64,000 bases of DNA from Bifidobacterium asteroides (GTDB taxonomy: Bacteria; Actinomycetota; Actinomycetes; Actinomycetales; Bifidobacteriaceae): positions 124,001-188,000 of the forward strand of contig NZ_CP132384.1 of the NCBI RefSeq assembly GCF_030758775.1. Reading direction: 5' to 3'. The position numbers were made by a program, and so were the translations under genes. Positions 36,473 through 43,021 of the stretch are shown piece after piece. Within the stretch, counting starts at the first letter, position 1. Each line of letters begins with the position of its first letter. The notes below the pieces were generated by a model. That model saw nothing but the letters and a program-made list of their open reading frames with translations, had not been told where the DNA came from and ran no database searches.

Positions 36473-36789
36473 CTATCGGTCGTGCTTGTGCGACCTGATC
36501 AGCCACCGCCACACGTCGGTGACGGTCATGATCTGGAAGGCGACGAAATCTCCTGGCCCGGCTTCCTTGATTATGGCCTCGTTATGGCCTTGATGCAGTC
36601 CTCTTCGAGCGCCTCAGGATGCCTGGACCCGACGAACACCACGGCATCCAGCCCATTCCGATCCTGAATCTCCTCTTTGCCTGCACGATGCAGGACGGCA
36701 TAGCCGATTTCCTGGCAGGCGTTACACCATGCCCGCCGCCACTTCTGGCCATCTTGAGCGTTTGAGCTCCTCTCTCCCCCGCCCTCCAT
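36473..36789 (-). pseudogene. Small conserved-looking gene broken by an 11-bp duplication
   Basis: From an ATG at 36789 the frame reads ...WRRAWCNACQEIGYAVLHRAG...LDAVVFVGSRHPEALEEDCIKA, then goes out of frame. Removing one copy of an 11-bp near-perfect direct duplication (36571-36581 / 36582-36592) restores IIKEAGPGDFVAFQIMTVTD and VWRWLIRSHKHDR to a stop at 36473. The repaired protein would have about 101 residues. Function unknown. Confidence 0.6.
36571..36592. repeat. 11-bp tandem duplication (frameshifting)
   Basis: TTATGGCCTCG is followed directly by TTATGGCCTTG (10 of 11 identical). Eleven is not a multiple of three, so the duplication breaks the reading frame of the minus-strand gene across it. 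Confidence 0.85.
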
Positions 36790-37057
36790 CCATATGGCAC
36801 CACACTGACGACCTACAGTCAAAGGCCGCACTCTTTTCCTCTGGGTGTTCCTTGGATCTTCCAGCCGCGGCCCTGCTTTTCCACCTGGCTCCGGCAGGCC
36901 CACGCCTTATACACGCCCAAAGCTGTCAAGCCGTATTTTGGCAAGCATCCTATGATCGACCTGATCCAGGTCGCCGGAGCGCGGGGCGGGAGCCCCGCCG
37001 TCACGCCCGGCCTTTTTCCATGGGCGTACGCCCCCATGCGTCTTTACGATAAGGGCC

Positions 37058-37411
37058 ATGGCAAGCGAGGAAGTGTCTCCGGAGGACAAGGCCAGGACCG
37101 AGCAGGTGGCCGACAGCATCATCGGCCAGCTGCTGGCGGGCCAGCGGATGACCCTGCTCGACGAGGACTCCCCCAGGGGCCGCTACCTGCACGCCCTGAT
37201 CGAACGGGGCCGGCAGGAGCACCTGATCGACATAGGCCGGTCCATGGGGCACCTGGCCTGGGTCACCCGCGAGCAGGCCGAGCAGATCAACGAGTGGTAT
37301 GCCAGCCGGCGGCCTCGATGGTGGCCAGGGCCTGGGCCTTGTAGCCCAGGTAGAAGGCGCTCCGGGCCGGGGCGTCCAGATGGTCCGGGTAATGGTCGCC
37401 CACCGGGGTGA
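37058..37411 (+). CDS. Hypothetical protein, 3' end probably truncated
   Basis: 117 residues as read. The first ~85 (EEVSPEDKARTEQVADSIIG...GRYLHALIERGRQEHLIDIGRSMGHLAWVTREQAEQINEWYASRR) look like a real helical protein. After ~37310 the frame runs antisense into the cas8c-like fragment and becomes Gly/Pro/Arg-rich. The gene therefore probably lost its true end at a junction there. No family is recognised. Confidence 0.45.
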   Translation: MASEEVSPEDKARTEQVADSIIGQLLAGQRMTLLDEDSPRGRYLHALIERGRQEHLIDIGRSMGHLAWVTREQAEQINEWYASRRPRWWPGPGPCSPGRRRSGPGRPDGPGNGRPPG

Positions 37412-38096
37412 CGGCCCGTGCCAGATGCAGGTACCATCTCCGGTCGGCCTTGGAGGGGCCTGTGCGCAGGCGCCGATCGAGCGCGGGGATGCCGTGGGAC
37501 GGGCGGGCGGCTGTGCTGCATAGCGTCTGCCTGAGAAGGGGTTTGAACGTTCCCGGGCTGTTGAGCCGGCGGATCTGCGCCGCGTACATGTAGTAGACCC
37601 TGCCCAGCCGGTAGCCCAGGCAGTCGGAGTCCTCGTGCGTGCCCGGCCCGAGTATCCCATGGGGGCAGGCCTTGTCGGGCCTCCTGGCGTAGTAGGCGCG
37701 CAGGAGCATGGCATCCGTGCCGCTCACATCGCCGGCCCTGCGGATGTCCTCCTCCACCAGGCGGGGCAGCTCGGCCGGGTAGGGGCCGTCGGCGTCTTCG
37801 GGCGGCGGGGTCTGCCGAATGCCGGCCTGATGCAGGAGGGCGTCAGGGTACCTGGAGTCGGCGTCGTCGGACCAGCAGACCACCGAGACGGCCCTGCCGA
37901 TGGGCGCATGCCATCCTGGCGTCGCCAGCATGTAATTGAGCGCATCCGCATAGGCTGTCGCCTCCTGGGCGCCGACCGGGGACACCAGGCCCCGCTGCTT
38001 GCCGTATGACCATATGGAATATGTGGTACATATTTTATGAATTTTGGCCAGAGGCGGGTAAATACTGTTGTCCATAACGGCGTGGTGGGGAGGCAT
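37287..38096 (-). pseudogene. cas8c: Orphan fragment of Cas8c/Csd1 (type I-C CRISPR large subunit)
   Basis: 269 residues, against roughly 570-630 for complete Cas8c. Residues ~30-75 (SYGKQRGLVSPVGAQEATAY, ALNYMLA...IGRAVSVVCWSDD) match the conserved SYGKxQGxNxPVSxxAAxAYxxALNxLL...IGDxTxVFWA block. GYRLGRVYYMYAAQ matches the YxLGRLFAxLExxQ block, STAARPSHGIPALDRRL the SSTPxxVFPRLxRL block, and YPDHLDAPARSAFYLGYKAQ the C-terminal FPxHLxxxxQGxFxLGYYHQ block. The N-terminal half is absent. No cas5, cas7, cas3, cas1-2, cas4 or repeat array is in the window. The ATG at 38096 has no ribosome-binding site. Identification is from remembered family motifs. Confidence 0.65.
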
Positions 38097-38098
38097 CC

Positions 38099-38630
38099 AT
38101 GATGGGGATACGGAAGAAATTCAAGGAGCTAAAGAATCAAAAACTGACTCTTTTTCGCCCAGACGATACTCAATGGCTAACCCTTGGACAGCTCCAGCAG
38201 AGGTATGACGACCTCAAAGACCAGCGCGACAAGCAAATGGATCATGCACAGCGCCTGCTCGCGTTGTGCGCAGTGTCCAGCTTCATCTCCTTCATGTCGC
38301 AGCCCGCCTGGAAGAAGCTTAAGAGCACTCCGCCGAAAGTATTGCTTGTTATCTGCACTATCTCATTGGTGACCATTGTATTTTTGATCGCTGCGGTGAT
38401 CATAGCTGATCTATACAGCCCCATAAAAACCCCCCATGCTGGTAAACGCCACAGCACAGGCACAGCCACAATCCACGGGGGAAAACCAAAAAAACCTCCT
38501 TGACGAGTGGAAGGCACAGGTCGATATATTGGAATCTCATAATAACTTACGAGAAGCCATAATTATCTTTGCCTATGCCGCTTATGCAGTTGCCTTGGAT
38601 GGAATCATTGTTTGTTTTCTCCCCGTGTAA
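38099..38630 (+). pseudogene. Frameshifted small membrane protein, partner of the DUF4062 gene
   Basis: GGGGAGG precedes the ATG. The first frame (134 codons) has a charged coiled-coil-like segment (LQQRYDDLKDQRDKQMDHAQ), a hydrophobic stretch (LLALCAVSSFISFM) and a clear helix (VLLVICTISLVTIVFLIAAV). At A5C6 (38425-38435) a +1 shift continues into LLDEWKAQVDILESHNNLRE and a further helix (AIIIFAYAAYAVALDGIIV) to a stop at 38630. The combined ~177-residue protein would be a multi-helix membrane protein of the kind often paired with nucleotide-sensing defence proteins. Without the shift the second helix is lost. Confidence 0.5.
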
Positions 38631-38687
38631 TCCGAGAGGGAAAGCAGCTGAGCCAGGAATCTTGTAGCTTGGTCTTATGATTTTCCT

Positions 38688-39884
38688 ATGGAAAGCTATG
38701 CAAAAAAGAAAATAAACCATACCATAAATGCACTTAAACAATTCGATCCAGACAAACACCCCGAGCTTTTCGATGAAATTCTCTATGGAAGGTACCTGGC
38801 TAGGCAAAGCGATTTTCCAGAGTTGGCCAAATTTCTGACCGTTGCTCAAATTAAACTGGCCAGCTGCGTCCTGCCTCTTAATAAGTCGATAAGCGGCGAA
38901 AGTAAATTAGAAATTCTTCTTAAAAACTTAATAGATACAATAGGTGCTCTGAGTGCTTTCGACAAAACGATAAGGAATGAAGCCGATTATGAGGTGGATT
39001 ACGGCAATAACTTTCCGGAGGCGCAGATTCAACACGCCATTCAAGTTCTACAATACAGGCCTTCATATTGGGAGGAACCTGGACCTCAGGATAGATTCAA
39101 TGTACTGCCGTTAACGAGACGCCCCATGTTTGCAGTGAAGCGTGTTCATACTCCAGGCTATGTTATAAATTCACCAAAAATTCATTCTGATGCAGCGGAG
39201 TCACTACCACAGCATTTGATCTTGTCCAACGGAACCTACCGATTACACGTATCGCAAGCAAATTCGCCAGAAAAAGGACAGGATCCGCAGGGGCACCAGC
39301 AGGGCACAACACAAGCGGAGCAGGCTGGGCGGAAGCATTACACGGTGTTCGTCGGCTCGACCTTCGAGGATATGAAAGACATCCGTGCGGCTGTGCTGCG
39401 GCGGCTGAACTCCTCGGAGGAATACAAAGCGATCGGCATGGAAGACTTCACGGCCGCCAACGGAAGACAGCTCCCATACATCAAGGAAAGGCTCAAGGAC
39501 ACCGACATCTACGTGCTTATCCTGGGCGGCAAGTACGGCAGCCTCATATCCAAGGACGACAAGGACCGGCCGGACGAGGAGGACAAGAGCTATACGCAAA
39601 AGGAATATGAGCTGGCCATGGCAGACCCTGATATCAAGGTGCTGTGCTTCGTGTGCGAGAAGCCTGAGGAATTGCCTCCTGATAAGCGAGAAGAGACCGA
39701 CTGTAAACGCAAACTGCTCACAAAATTTAAAGATAAAGTGGGAGCCGAACACAAGTACATGCCCTGGGTCGCCCAAGACAGCCCGGAGAAGATCGCAGGC
39801 GACGTTTACCAGTCTCTGGCCCAAATGGACAAAAGCGCCCTGCGAGGCTGGGTCAGAGGAACATCGGGTTCCTCGGCCAAATAG
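38688..39884 (+). CDS. DUF4062 domain protein with novel N-terminal domain
   Basis: 398 residues. Residues ~1-200 are a helical domain I do not recognise (KKINHTINALKQFDPDKHPE...). A Gln/Gly-rich linker leads to DUF4062 at ~220-330: HYTVFVGSTFEDMKDIRAAV, MEDFTAANGRQLPYIKERLK and DTDIYVLILGGKYGSLI. A charged C-terminal region (~330-398) follows. DUF4062 is a Rossmann-like domain seen in signalling and conflict proteins, often fused to NACHT or TPR modules; its activity is not established. AT-rich codon use in the N-terminal half and GC-rich use in the DUF4062 half suggest a domain joining. It lies 57 bp after the membrane-protein gene. Confidence 0.75.
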   Translation: MESYAKKKINHTINALKQFDPDKHPELFDEILYGRYLARQSDFPELAKFLTVAQIKLASCVLPLNKSISGESKLEILLKNLIDTIGALSAFDKTIRNEADYEVDYGNNFPEAQIQHAIQVLQYRPSYWEEPGPQDRFNVLPLTRRPMFAVKRVHTPGYVINSPKIHSDAAESLPQHLILSNGTYRLHVSQANSPEKGQDPQGHQQGTTQAEQAGRKHYTVFVGSTFEDMKDIRAAVLRRLNSSEEYKAIGMEDFTAANGRQLPYIKERLKDTDIYVLILGGKYGSLISKDDKDRPDEEDKSYTQKEYELAMADPDIKVLCFVCEKPEELPPDKREETDCKRKLLTKFKDKVGAEHKYMPWVAQDSPEKIAGDVYQSLAQMDKSALRGWVRGTSGSSAK

Positions 39885-39942
39885 GGCTGTCTGGCCCGGA
39901 CAAGCGGCACCGTCCCGTCAGAGGCAGGGCCAGGCAGGCGCC

Positions 39943-40542
39943 TTAAGCCGGCGCGGCTGTTCCTTCAGAGGTTTGCCTGGTGCTGTTTTTCCCTGCCCGT
40001 CCGATCGCCTTGTAGATGGTGCTTCGGCTGACGTTGAACCTGGCGGCTATCTCCTTGACGGTCACGGTCCTGGAGTCGTACAGCTGGCGCACCATGGCGA
40101 CGTCCTTGTCGGAGAGCTTGTATGGGCGGCCTCCTTTCCTGCCGCGCGCCCTGGCCGCCGTCAGGCCGGCCATGGTGCGTTCCCGGATCAGGTCCCGCTC
40201 GAACTGCGCCAGGGCGGAAAAGATGTTGAAGACCAGCACCCCTCCAGGCGTGCTGGTGTCCATGTTCTCGGTCAGGCTGCGGAACCCCACCCCCTGCTTA
40301 TGGAACCGGTCCATCAGATCGACCAGGTTCTGCACGCTGCGCCCGAGACGGTCGAGCTTCCACACCACCACCGTGTCGCCCTCGCGCAGCGCCTCCAGCA
40401 TCCGGTCCAGCTGGGGGCGGCTGGCCTTGGCACCGGAGGAATGATCGACATAGATCCTCCCGCAACCCGCCTTCCTCAGCGCGTCGGTCTGCAGATCCTC
40501 GTTCTGCTCAAGCGTACTCACCCTCGCATAGCCGATCAGCAT
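39943..40542 (-). CDS. Serine recombinase (resolvase/invertase family)
   Basis: 199 residues, the normal length. The catalytic N-terminus is intact: IGYARVST with the active Ser, LDRLGRS with conserved Arg residues, and FSALAQFERDLIRERTMAGL. The C-terminal HTH_7-type domain is VTVKEIAARFNVSRSTIYKAI. Such enzymes catalyse site-specific resolution or inversion. Its start overlaps the stop of the membrane-protein gene by ATGCTGA. I found no obvious paired crossover sites. Confidence 0.93.
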   Translation of the reverse strand: MLIGYARVSTLEQNEDLQTDALRKAGCGRIYVDHSSGAKASRPQLDRMLEALREGDTVVVWKLDRLGRSVQNLVDLMDRFHKQGVGFRSLTENMDTSTPGGVLVFNIFSALAQFERDLIRERTMAGLTAARARGRKGGRPYKLSDKDVAMVRQLYDSRTVTVKEIAARFNVSRSTIYKAIGRAGKNSTRQTSEGTAAPA

Positions 40543-41396
40543 GCACCCTCCCCCCGGCCGGCCGACGGCGACTTCAGCCGCCTTACATGGGCCCGCTTTG
40601 GAAACCGACGGTGATAGACCGGACGGTTACAGACCGGACGGTTACAGACCGCCATATGGGTCTCTTTGTATGGGCCTTCCCTGGGAACGATGCGTTCGTT
40701 GATGATCTGCACCAGATAGTCGACCGCCAGCACGGTAACAGCCACAGAGAAGATCAGCGAATAATCTTCCCCTCCGCCGTGATCCTCGTTCCACAGATTG
40801 AAGAACAGCAGGAAGATCATGCCTATGACGGGATAAGGCGTGGTGCGGATCCACCATCTGCTCGGCCGCATACGTTCAAGATCGAAAAAAACGTCGTGAA
40901 AATAGAGAAACCATGCCGTTAGCTCAACCAGGGTAAGAAGCCCGAGACAAACGGATGGCATTGTCGGCACCCTGTTCGTAGGAACGAGCTTATCTCCATC
41001 GATTTCTGAAGTGAATTGCACAAAGGAGACTGAAATACAGAAGACGTATACCAAGTGAAGAAGCAAACAAGTTAGCATCTTGCTTGTAATCCTCATACGC
41101 AGAGAGGCTGAACGTCTGCTTACCTTGAGGATAAGATACACCGGTCCGGATAACAAACTCAGAACTGCAACTATATACCACAGACCAAAATAGGCTAGAT
41201 CAGCTTTGCCAAAGAAGACTAGGCCTATATGAACACAGCAGGCGAAAGACAGGACCTCTAACGCAAGAAACACGAAGAGTCCGCGTAGTTCGTGCGGTTG
41301 GGATGACGGTATTTCCCTAATAAACGAATCTATATAATCACTTGTATAAGCGTTGATTCGCTTAAACACACGCACATACTTGCTTAGTAGCTTCAT
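40536..41396 (-). CDS. Polytopic membrane protein, function unknown
   Basis: About 286 residues from the ATG at 41396 (AGGGAG upstream). Six hydrophobic segments are visible, for example LRGLFVFLALEVLSFACCV, FGLWYIVAVLSLLSGPVYLIL, MLTCLLLHLVYVFCISVSF, VCLGLLTLVELTAWFLYF, VIGMIFLLFFNL and IFSVAVTVLAVDYLVQII. A basic C-terminal tail contains a duplicated VCNRP. GC is low at the 5' end and rises in the tail, which overlaps the recombinase start by 7 bp. No family is recognised. Confidence 0.65.
   Translation of the reverse strand: MKLLSKYVRVFKRINAYTSDYIDSFIREIPSSQPHELRGLFVFLALEVLSFACCVHIGLVFFGKADLAYFGLWYIVAVLSLLSGPVYLILKVSRRSASLRMRITSKMLTCLLLHLVYVFCISVSFVQFTSEIDGDKLVPTNRVPTMPSVCLGLLTLVELTAWFLYFHDVFFDLERMRPSRWWIRTTPYPVIGMIFLLFFNLWNEDHGGGEDYSLIFSVAVTVLAVDYLVQIINERIVPREGPYKETHMAVCNRPVCNRPVYHRRFPKRAHVRRLKSPSAGRGEGAC
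40616..40651. repeat. 15-bp direct repeat (2.4 units)
   Basis: AGACCGGACGGTTAC occurs twice in tandem and then partly a third time (AGACCG). It lies inside the 3' end of the membrane-protein gene and encodes VCNRP twice. As 15 bp is a multiple of three, copy-number change keeps frame. Confidence 0.85.
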
Positions 41397-42171
41397 GTCC
41401 ACTCCCTGCCCTCGAATCAGTTTATCTTCCCATACGATTATCGTACTTAGATTAAAGAACAAGTAAAACGACAAATAGGCAACATTGGTTCTTCGGATAT
41501 GGAGGACAAGCCAGATGTCTATAAAACGGTCGTTTCTTCAGCAGGCGAGAGACGCTGGTGCTTTTCACGATGAATTCGGACTTGTGATCATGCCTTTCAG
41601 GCGAGTTTGGGCTCGGCCATTACATGTTTGATCTACTTGGTGACTATCTGAAAGCTAGATTCTATATCGGAAGCGTCGGAGTTCTGCTGGGATAAGACGT
41701 TTCAGGCTTATGGCTCTACTAAAAGTATGCTATCGGGCATGAAAGGGTTCCGATGGGACGTATGGCTGGAAGCCAGCGGGGTGCCCGCTGATCATTGTGG
41801 CGTGGCTATGGGTATTTTGAAACAAAGGATTGACTCTGTTGGTGCTGCAAATAGGTTGAGAGACAGGATGGGGCGAGTTGAATGCCGAGGAGCGGGGGAG
41901 TGCGGTTATTCCTATCCGAATTTTAAAGGCCCTATTGGTATCTGGTCCCAGTCCTCGTCAGTACTGATGGGGCGTGTCCAGGGCATCATAGCTTTGCTCG
42001 GGCGGGAAGACTTTAGCTTCCGGAGTCGGTTCGCCGTCCCTCTTCTGAGGCAGGGTTACGCTTCCTGATGCAGAGTATCCGCGTGATAGGGGCGCCGAGG
42101 TTCCGAAGCGACGCTGACAAGGGACCGTACAGGCGGAGTCTGTCTGTAGTGAGACGGAAGACGGCTCAAGG
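41397..42171. other. Intergenic stretch at the right end of the island
   Basis: About 775 bp. A 113-codon plus-strand frame (41727-42068) has no ribosome-binding site, no family resemblance and a Gly/Ser-rich composition, so I do not call it. No tRNA or complete insertion sequence is seen. Confidence 0.4.
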
Positions 42172-42213
42172 ATTGCCATAGTGGGCCCTGCAGGTTCTTG
42201 CAGGGCCCATCAG
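42172..42213 (+). repeat. Island-flanking hairpin element, right copy
   Basis: A perfect 11-bp stem TGGGCCCTGCA / TGCAGGGCCCA with loop GGTTCT (42182-42209) is framed by GCCATAG and CATCAG. It lies 56 bp past the cobB stop and may terminate that gene, though no T-run follows. A diverged copy lies in the opposite orientation after ilvA. Confidence 0.65.
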
Positions 42214-42265
42214 AAATCTGCAAATCGCAGACCTGTTCCAATAATTGCGTGGAAAGGTTAGGGAA

Positions 42266-43021
42266 TCAACTCTGGCCGGCGATGGTCTTGTCAACGAGCT
42301 TGGGCAGCGCTTCTTCGATGGGTTCGTGGATGAGCCGGGTTGCCAGGGAATCATACTGGGTCGAACCCATGTTCATGATGGTGATTGGCACGCCTGCCTG
42401 GGCTGCCACCGGCACCAGCGAGGCCGCCGGATAGACCTCCAAGGTGGAGCCGATCACCCAGAATTGATCAGCCTGGCTGGCCAGTCTCATGCTCTTTTCC
42501 ATGGCTCCCTCGGGCAGGGCCTGACCGAAATAGACCACATCAGTCTTGATGATGCCATTGCAAGGCATGTTGCCTTGGTAGGGCATGGGCTTGTGGCAGT
42601 GTGGATCGGGTTCCTGATCGAGCTTGGCCATGATGTCGGCCGTCCGATATGCCTGACCGCATTTCATGCAATGGGAACTGCCGATGGTCCCGTGAAGGTT
42701 CACGATGACGTCCTCGGAGTTGCCGGCTTTCTCGTGAAGGGCATCGAAGTTCTGCGTAGCCAGCAGGTTCAGCATGCCTGCCTGCTCCAGCTTGGCCAGT
42801 GCCTTGTGCGCTACTCCGGGCTGGGCCTTCCAGACAGGCGACTCCTTCTGCCACCGCCATGAATACTCCCGCTGCTTCTTGTCGCTCATGAACAGGTCCA
42901 GGTCATAGACATTCATCTGATCGGGATGCTTGGTCCAAACCCCGTCAGGCCCGCGAAAATCCGGTATGCCGGCGGAAGTCGAGATTCCCGCCCCGGTCAG
43001 TACTGCAATTGTTGTGCTCAT
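42266..43021 (-). CDS. cobB: NAD-dependent protein deacylase, Sir2 family
   Basis: 251 residues. The NAD-binding GAGISTSAGIPDFRG, TQNFDALHEKAG (commonly TQNID), the catalytic His in VNLHGTIG, and the four zinc Cys (CMKC; DPHC...MPC) are present, with a C-terminal GSTLEVYPAASLV. It removes acyl groups from protein lysines using NAD. It is transcribed away from the rRNA operon and marks the right boundary of the accessory island. Confidence 0.93.
   Translation of the reverse strand: MSTTIAVLTGAGISTSAGIPDFRGPDGVWTKHPDQMNVYDLDLFMSDKKQREYSWRWQKESPVWKAQPGVAHKALAKLEQAGMLNLLATQNFDALHEKAGNSEDVIVNLHGTIGSSHCMKCGQAYRTADIMAKLDQEPDPHCHKPMPYQGNMPCNGIIKTDVVYFGQALPEGAMEKSMRLASQADQFWVIGSTLEVYPAASLVPVAAQAGVPITIMNMGSTQYDSLATRLIHEPIEEALPKLVDKTIAGQS

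Follow-up and report, generated by a model that had tools for sequence, protein, structure and literature searches.

Genes and features at the locus

Bifidobacterium asteroides is a gut bacterium of bees. The window analysed here, a stretch of 64,000 nucleotides of its genome (itself assembled as one 2.08-Mb contig), holds an intact gene for a protein of 398 residues in which a helical N-terminal domain, hereafter the front domain, precedes a C-terminal DUF4062 domain. A small membrane protein gene, membrane1, lies upstream in a broken state, and a serine recombinase gene and a second membrane protein gene, membrane2, follow on the opposite strand (Table 1). An earlier note, made from the sequence alone, had described a unit of two genes 57 bp apart; the intact DUF4062 open reading frame (ORF) and the 57-bp gap stand, but the membrane gene is split by a frameshift.

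Table 1. Features of the DUF4062 locus and its immediate surroundings, in window positions
Feature	Position	Strand	Remarks
Cas8c/Csd1 fragment (type I-C)	37287-38096	-	PF09709, E 3.3e-13; best stretch is profile positions 222-278 of 559; also found with PADLOC
membrane1, first part	38099-38503	+	N-terminal region with two hydrophobic segments; ended by frameshift
membrane1, remainder	38436-38630	+	C-terminal region with third hydrophobic segment; other frame
DUF4062 (TIR-like) gene, intact, 398 residues	38688-39884	+	N-terminal helical domain, then C-terminal TIR-like domain
N-terminal helical domain, residues 1-152	38688-39143	+	Helical by prediction, with strands at 101-105 and 148-152
Junction of the two halves (recombination point), residues 188-200	39249-39287	+	Edges of blastn blocks; conflicting identities
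TIR-like NADase domain (predicted), residues 216-391	39333-39860	+	PF13271 part 39345-39617
E306 codon	39603-39605	+	Aligned with catalytic E97 of KpSwz
Serine recombinase (resolvase/invertase type), full-length	39943-40542	-	PF00239, E 1.3e-48; convergent with the DUF4062 gene
membrane2, membrane protein of 312 residues	40536-41474	-	Overlaps the start of the recombinase gene

The DUF4062 half

The profile PF13271 matches residues 220-310 with an E value of 1.7e-19 and 70.2 bits, against a curated cut-off of 24.7. According to a 2026 preprint (PMC13174449), DUF4062 is a TIR-like NADase and the executioner of the anti-phage system Swarozyc, and predicted defence islands hold about 20% of its bacterial homologues. 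KpSwz of K. pneumoniae, with E97 as catalytic residue, has a phage portal protein as its trigger and works by depleting NAD+; all five bacterial DUF4062 proteins assayed have C-terminal auxiliary domains, and in KpSwz this domain binds the phage trigger (PMC13174449). No other paper in our full-text literature search treats the function of DUF4062, as judged by titles, starts of abstracts and term counts.

Residues 216-395 of the window protein align with positions 4-170 of the KpSwz chain 10wc_A, which is the whole TIR-like domain, and the 88 residues after the PF13271 match align to its remaining part; by fold, the protein classes as TIR-like. Both the catalytic glutamate and the tryptophan of the intertwined strand are kept. 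E306 is invariant in all five sequences of the alignment (A1), and at the E97 position chain 10wc_A has alanine, which we take to mark the E97A protein. DUF4062 occurs in 11 of 189 genomes of the family, at 13 places, and in 35 of 396 of the phylum, at 41 places. Five open genes carry the catalytic glutamate (in the window and in genomes G010, G011, G012 and G020), and two further, near-identical pseudogene copies carry a stop (G019 and G012:C5). The ratio of replacement to silent changes per site (dN/dS) of the DUF4062 half is 0.28-0.64 in 10 of 10 pairs; this half is under purifying selection. From these comparisons, it is close to certain that the window protein belongs to the TIR-like NADase family. 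The earlier note had taken DUF4062 for a Rossmann-type nucleotide sensor; given the match to KpSwz it is probably the effector instead, and the roles that the note assigned are likely reversed.

The order of domains differs from that of KpSwz, in which the TIR-like domain is followed by a stalk and then by a helix-turn-helix (HTH)/winged portal-binding domain. In the window protein this order is inverted: the helical domain comes first, the chain ends after the TIR-like domain, and membrane1 lies upstream. A KpSwz-type C-terminal HTH/winged domain after a stalk is missing, and the match stops at position 170-171 of the 326 of KpSwz. The animal DUF4062 proteins TEP1, NWD1/2 and NPHP3 also have DUF4062 fused to other domains, and NADase activity has been shown for TEP1 (PMC13174449); they carry a NACHT ATPase beside DUF4062, for which the window protein has no Pfam match.

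The front domain

Residues 1-213 had no match at E ≤ 1 in Pfam, NCBIfam, PADLOC or PHROGs, which bears out the claim of an unrecognised N-terminal domain fused to DUF4062. In the structure model, blocks within residues 1-150 reach predicted local distance difference test (pLDDT) values of 77-93, and the model has no PDB or viral structure match at E ≤ 0.001. A front-domain profile matches four of the 189 family genomes (the window's, G011, G012 and G020) and, among the 396 of the phylum set (window's included), the window genome alone; in the genomes searched, the domain occurs in one genus only. Homologues in housekeeping proteins would have spoken against a defence role; in neither genome set was a homologue found outside DUF4062 proteins.

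The four proteins have 172-255 residues ahead of DUF4062 and 88-90 behind it. Elsewhere in the phylum, 29 loci besides the window's own were examined for domain order, with start codons chosen mechanically and with 11 of the 41 places, those without a locus, left out. At least 100 residues precede DUF4062 in one of them (L070, with 189 ahead and 288 behind), and L063 has 97. In G010, homology extends to about the second codon and resumes at residue 200, so that only the front domain is gone.

Apparent fast evolution of the front domain

The front domains of the window and G011 were compared over 150 gap-free codons. Replacement changes number 60.5 on 355 sites and silent changes 7.5 on 95 sites (dN 0.193, dS 0.084, ratio 2.3; bootstrap P(dN ≤ dS) 0.005; one-sided Fisher 0.025). 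Codon positions 1, 2 and 3 account for 31, 28 and 9 of the changes (Fisher 4.9e-5), and in a window scan the excess of replacements spans all 150 codons. In the same two genomes, membrane1 (three separate pieces) has 11 replacement changes on 406 sites and 6 silent ones on 116 (dN 0.028, dS 0.054); replacement rates of the two differ (P 5e-12), whereas silent rates are alike (P 0.41). Divergence per 100 bases is 0-4% at 37901-38600, 12-19% at 38701-39200, 10-39% at 39201-39900 and 1-5% at 40001-40500, in the recombinase gene; for membrane1 itself the figure is 1-4%. An excess of this kind is found in recognition domains, and the front domain seems to evolve unusually fast.

Several other sources of such variation were rejected. 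A diversity-generating retroelement does not account for it: A is one of the two bases in 42 of the 68 changes but not in the other 26 (13 C/T, 8 G/T, 5 C/G). Conservation of silent sites by an overlapping gene is discounted too, the sole other ORF of at least 50 residues that overlaps the front domain covering codons 1-54 on the opposite strand while the excess covers 150 codons. A set of alternative front-domain cassettes, silent or invertible, for the recombinase to act on was dismissed because the genome itself contains neither a second copy of 38000-40600 nor a second front domain. Repeats of at least 14 nt were sought within 36500-42300, and the two inverted pairs that came up are both taken for chance: one joins 37161-37190 to 37607-37636 (70% complementary), the other joins 36626-36640 to 39344-39358 (15 nt, 93%), with its second arm where the DUF4062 part begins.

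The rates also bear on the view that the locus is decaying cargo of a recombination hotspot with no present function. Broken membrane1, the Cas8c fragment and the two DUF4062 copies with a stop would fit such decay, but five open genes keep the catalytic glutamate, and in place of the neutral dN/dS near 1 that would be expected we observed 2.3 in the front domain and the low values given above in the rest. We consider this explanation very unlikely.

Exchange of the two halves

Five comparisons (the window with G012, G010, G019 and G012:C5, and G011 with G012) place the edges of blastn blocks at residues 188-200; the block between the window and G020 begins later, at residue 218. In the front half, the window and G011 are 67% identical and G011 and G012 25%, whereas in the DUF4062 half the corresponding identities are 56% and 87%. 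The two halves thus show conflicting relationships among species; they have been exchanged between lineages, and the junction is a recombination point.

The earlier note rightly described an AT-rich front and a GC-rich DUF4062 half: G+C content in 200-base windows is about 40-46% in the former and about 52-58% in the latter, and at third codon positions (GC3) 41.5 and 71.6. It had read this step as a sign of recent joining. The homologues in G011, G012 and G020 show the step as well (41-53 against 68-77 over the four genes), and it therefore cannot date the joining.

membrane1 and the two-gene arrangement

Open relatives of membrane1 in G010 (257 residues) and G008 (198 residues) are single proteins with three hydrophobic segments. 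A long AAQTVT-type repeat linker lies between segments 2 and 3 of the G010 protein (L011 5794-6567, -) and is not in the other aligned copies. Among the five open DUF4062 loci, a count that leaves out the copies with a stop (G019 and G012:C5), four have membrane1 or a remnant of it ahead of DUF4062, and in three of the four it is broken. The break in the window sits in a run of C and may be a read error; in G011 the gene is split at a different place; in G020, absent from the profile listing, three-frame translation read by eye gave a remnant spread over two frames and interrupted by stops. G012 has no membrane1 profile match and carries a head-to-head membrane2 relative in its place, and in G008 the open membrane1 gene adjoins a recombinase gene in a genome without a DUF4062 match. 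Over the 189 family genomes, the membrane1 profile matches G000, G008, G010 and G011, with one weak match in G127 (E 9.9e-5), and over 386 genomes of the order the window's, with one weak match in G889 (E 7.2e-4). Four matches of the query P0002 in other genera (E 9.3e-5 to 1.0e-3) are put down to its repeat-rich linker. An upstream ORF of 173-481 residues with a hydrophobic segment is present in 6 of the 29 phylum loci by a crude hydropathy test.

As judged from these loci, membrane1 is a genuine gene, and its positional link to DUF4062 is old. The pairing that the earlier note expected in other genomes is thus found in conserved position, but only inside this genus and for the most part in a non-working state.

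It may be asked whether the two genes form a true two-gene system, in which membrane1 is a sensor, anchor or membrane effector that DUF4062 needs, the window copy being inactive or its break a read error and the working form that of G010. The spacing speaks for it, as the distance from the end of a hydrophobic ORF to DUF4062 is 57 bp in the window, G010 and G011 and 59 bp in G020 (there a remnant recognised by eye), and so does constraint: between the open genes of G010 and G008, dN/dS is 0.30 in the first two hydrophobic segments, though dS is high (1.3), and 0.43 at the C-terminus, where dS is near 2 and saturated. With the broken window copy, however, constraint is weaker (0.57 against G010 and 0.61 against G008; bootstrap P 0.058 and 0.054). 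DUF4062 is open in all three loci in which membrane1 is broken or decayed, G012 has DUF4062 without a membrane1 match, and G008 has the reverse. Both genes are open in one locus only, that of G010, which lacks the front domain: none of the four front-domain loci has an open membrane1, and the sole open DUF4062 locus without a front domain has one, in a set of five loci that is too small for a statistical claim. A two-gene system therefore appears rather unlikely to us.

The nucleotide-signalling layout proposed in the earlier note is not supported: the membrane gene is broken in three of four loci, and profile-profile comparison did not confirm a weak match to PycTM. Like PycTM of Pycsar, membrane1 encodes a small protein with hydrophobic segments, and the open membrane1 protein P0008 matches the PADLOC PycTM model weakly over residues 49-194 (E 0.1), P0002 giving no match. 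With a PycTM profile (A7) built from seven relatives in 4 of 10 genomes searched, hhalign aligned 21 columns of membrane1 (A6) at 0.2% probability and E 0.35, no better than the membrane2 control (A4; 0.1%, E 0.54). No cyclase domain was found in that part of the neighbouring ORFs scanned with Pfam. A Pycsar-like pair finds no support here.

A selfish or addiction function, by which a mobile element (recombinase, plasmid) would keep the NADase and membrane1 or membrane2 would restrain it, draws on the recombinase gene that adjoins the DUF4062 gene in the window, G011, G010 and G012 (split frame in G012) and on the 12.6-kb G010 contig with ParA. On the other hand, the DUF4062 gene stays open at loci with a broken membrane1, G010 has no membrane2 match, and no other candidate antitoxin gene common to the five loci was seen, without a systematic search. 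We regard this function as distinctly unlikely.

Proposed function

On balance, the window protein is probably an abortive-infection NADase of the DUF4062/Swarozyc kind that works as a single chain, with inverted domain order and a swappable, fast-evolving N-terminal sensor. A defence role, as the earlier note had suggested, is likely and is supported by homology to an anti-phage TIR-like NADase together with the excess of replacements in the front domain. We infer NADase activity, a phage trigger and a sensing role of the front domain. The N-terminal helical domain would recognise something that the phage makes, or a sign that the cell is infected, and thereby bring the C-terminal TIR-like domains together; the assembled domains would hydrolyse NAD+, and its loss would stop the infected cell before phage release. 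membrane1 would be an ancestral neighbour that may once have served as trigger or membrane anchor and is now dispensable where the front domain is present.

Some observations weigh against this interpretation. The selection signal comes from one genome pair, the remaining front-domain pairs being too diverged for dN/dS. The hydropathy of changed positions in the front domain is no different from that of unchanged ones (P 0.88), which gives no sign that the changes form a surface patch. The G010 gene stays open without a front domain, which is therefore not essential for keeping the gene. No similarity to KpSwz was seen outside the TIR-like domain, and the KpSwz sensor is C-terminal. PADLOC matched neither the DUF4062 protein nor membrane1, and the window offers little defence context beyond the Cas8c fragment.

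More tentatively, the protein could be a TIR-type NADase receptor whose N-terminal sensor, under diversifying selection, is exchanged as a module at a fixed junction against a common killing domain, giving an allele series of immune receptors across species of one bee-gut genus; we hold this to be possible, at rather less than an even chance. Plant TIR-NLR immune receptors combine a TIR NADase with a fast-evolving recognition part. The window protein differs from them in having no ATPase or repeat match, another domain order and another recognition part. If our proposal is true, its evolutionary logic would resemble theirs, yet in one small protein; the DUF4062 killing domain would be re-used with new sensors, and a natural allele series would be available for identifying what in the phages of bee-gut bifidobacteria is recognised by the sensor. 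What marks this variant is its inverted order, a front domain limited to one genus among the genomes searched, and the replacement-rich evolution and exchange of that domain. No published report of such a DUF4062 variant was found in the literature searched, with most subscription journals outside its scope.

Surroundings and carriage

The serine recombinase and CRISPR fragment named in the earlier note were both confirmed as neighbours. Read by eye, G011 has only the start of the Cas8c/Csd1 frame, fused to other sequence. A PADLOC scan of seven window ORFs left four without a match and otherwise returned Cas8c (the fragment), generic HTH models (the recombinase) and SIR2-bearing models (the sir2 gene). 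A scan of 37800-41800 gave no promoter-like site and one terminator-like site, both under the shuffled mean and uninformative.

The segment is flanked in the window by a 690-residue gene, whose DUF1430 match is barely above the cut-off, and by the sir2 gene. The left flank is common to the window, G011 and G012, and the right flank partly common with G012 (that of G011 lies outside the compared stretch). In G022, recombinase and membrane2 lie beside apparently the same two neighbours, by sequence start and size, with no DUF4062 match. The segment behaves as a variable site between fixed neighbours.

Neither phage records (P0001, the DUF4062 protein, and P0008) nor viral contigs contained a relative, and P0008 had no match in plasmid records. 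P0001 matched 13 plasmid records, in each case only beyond about query residue 200 and with less than 80% covered, and two PHROGs families over its DUF4062 half; relatives of this half therefore exist in phage-derived collections. The G010 DUF4062 contig (12,570 bases) carries a ParA-type ATPase gene (L011 321-1055) and a ribbon-helix-helix-like ORF (2085-2414), which suggests that this copy is on a small plasmid. In G008, a 375-residue protein with no family match over the cut-off is encoded (L045 3071-4198, -) about 1.5 kb from the membrane1 gene.

The membrane2 family occurs at 15 places in 9 of 27 genomes of the genus, three of them in the window genome. Divergence from G011 at 40701-41500 is 31-67%, against only 1-5% in the recombinase gene, and membrane2 may be a second fast-changing cargo gene. 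Near its gene end, tandem direct repeats (3 x 15 bases) lie at 40607-40651.
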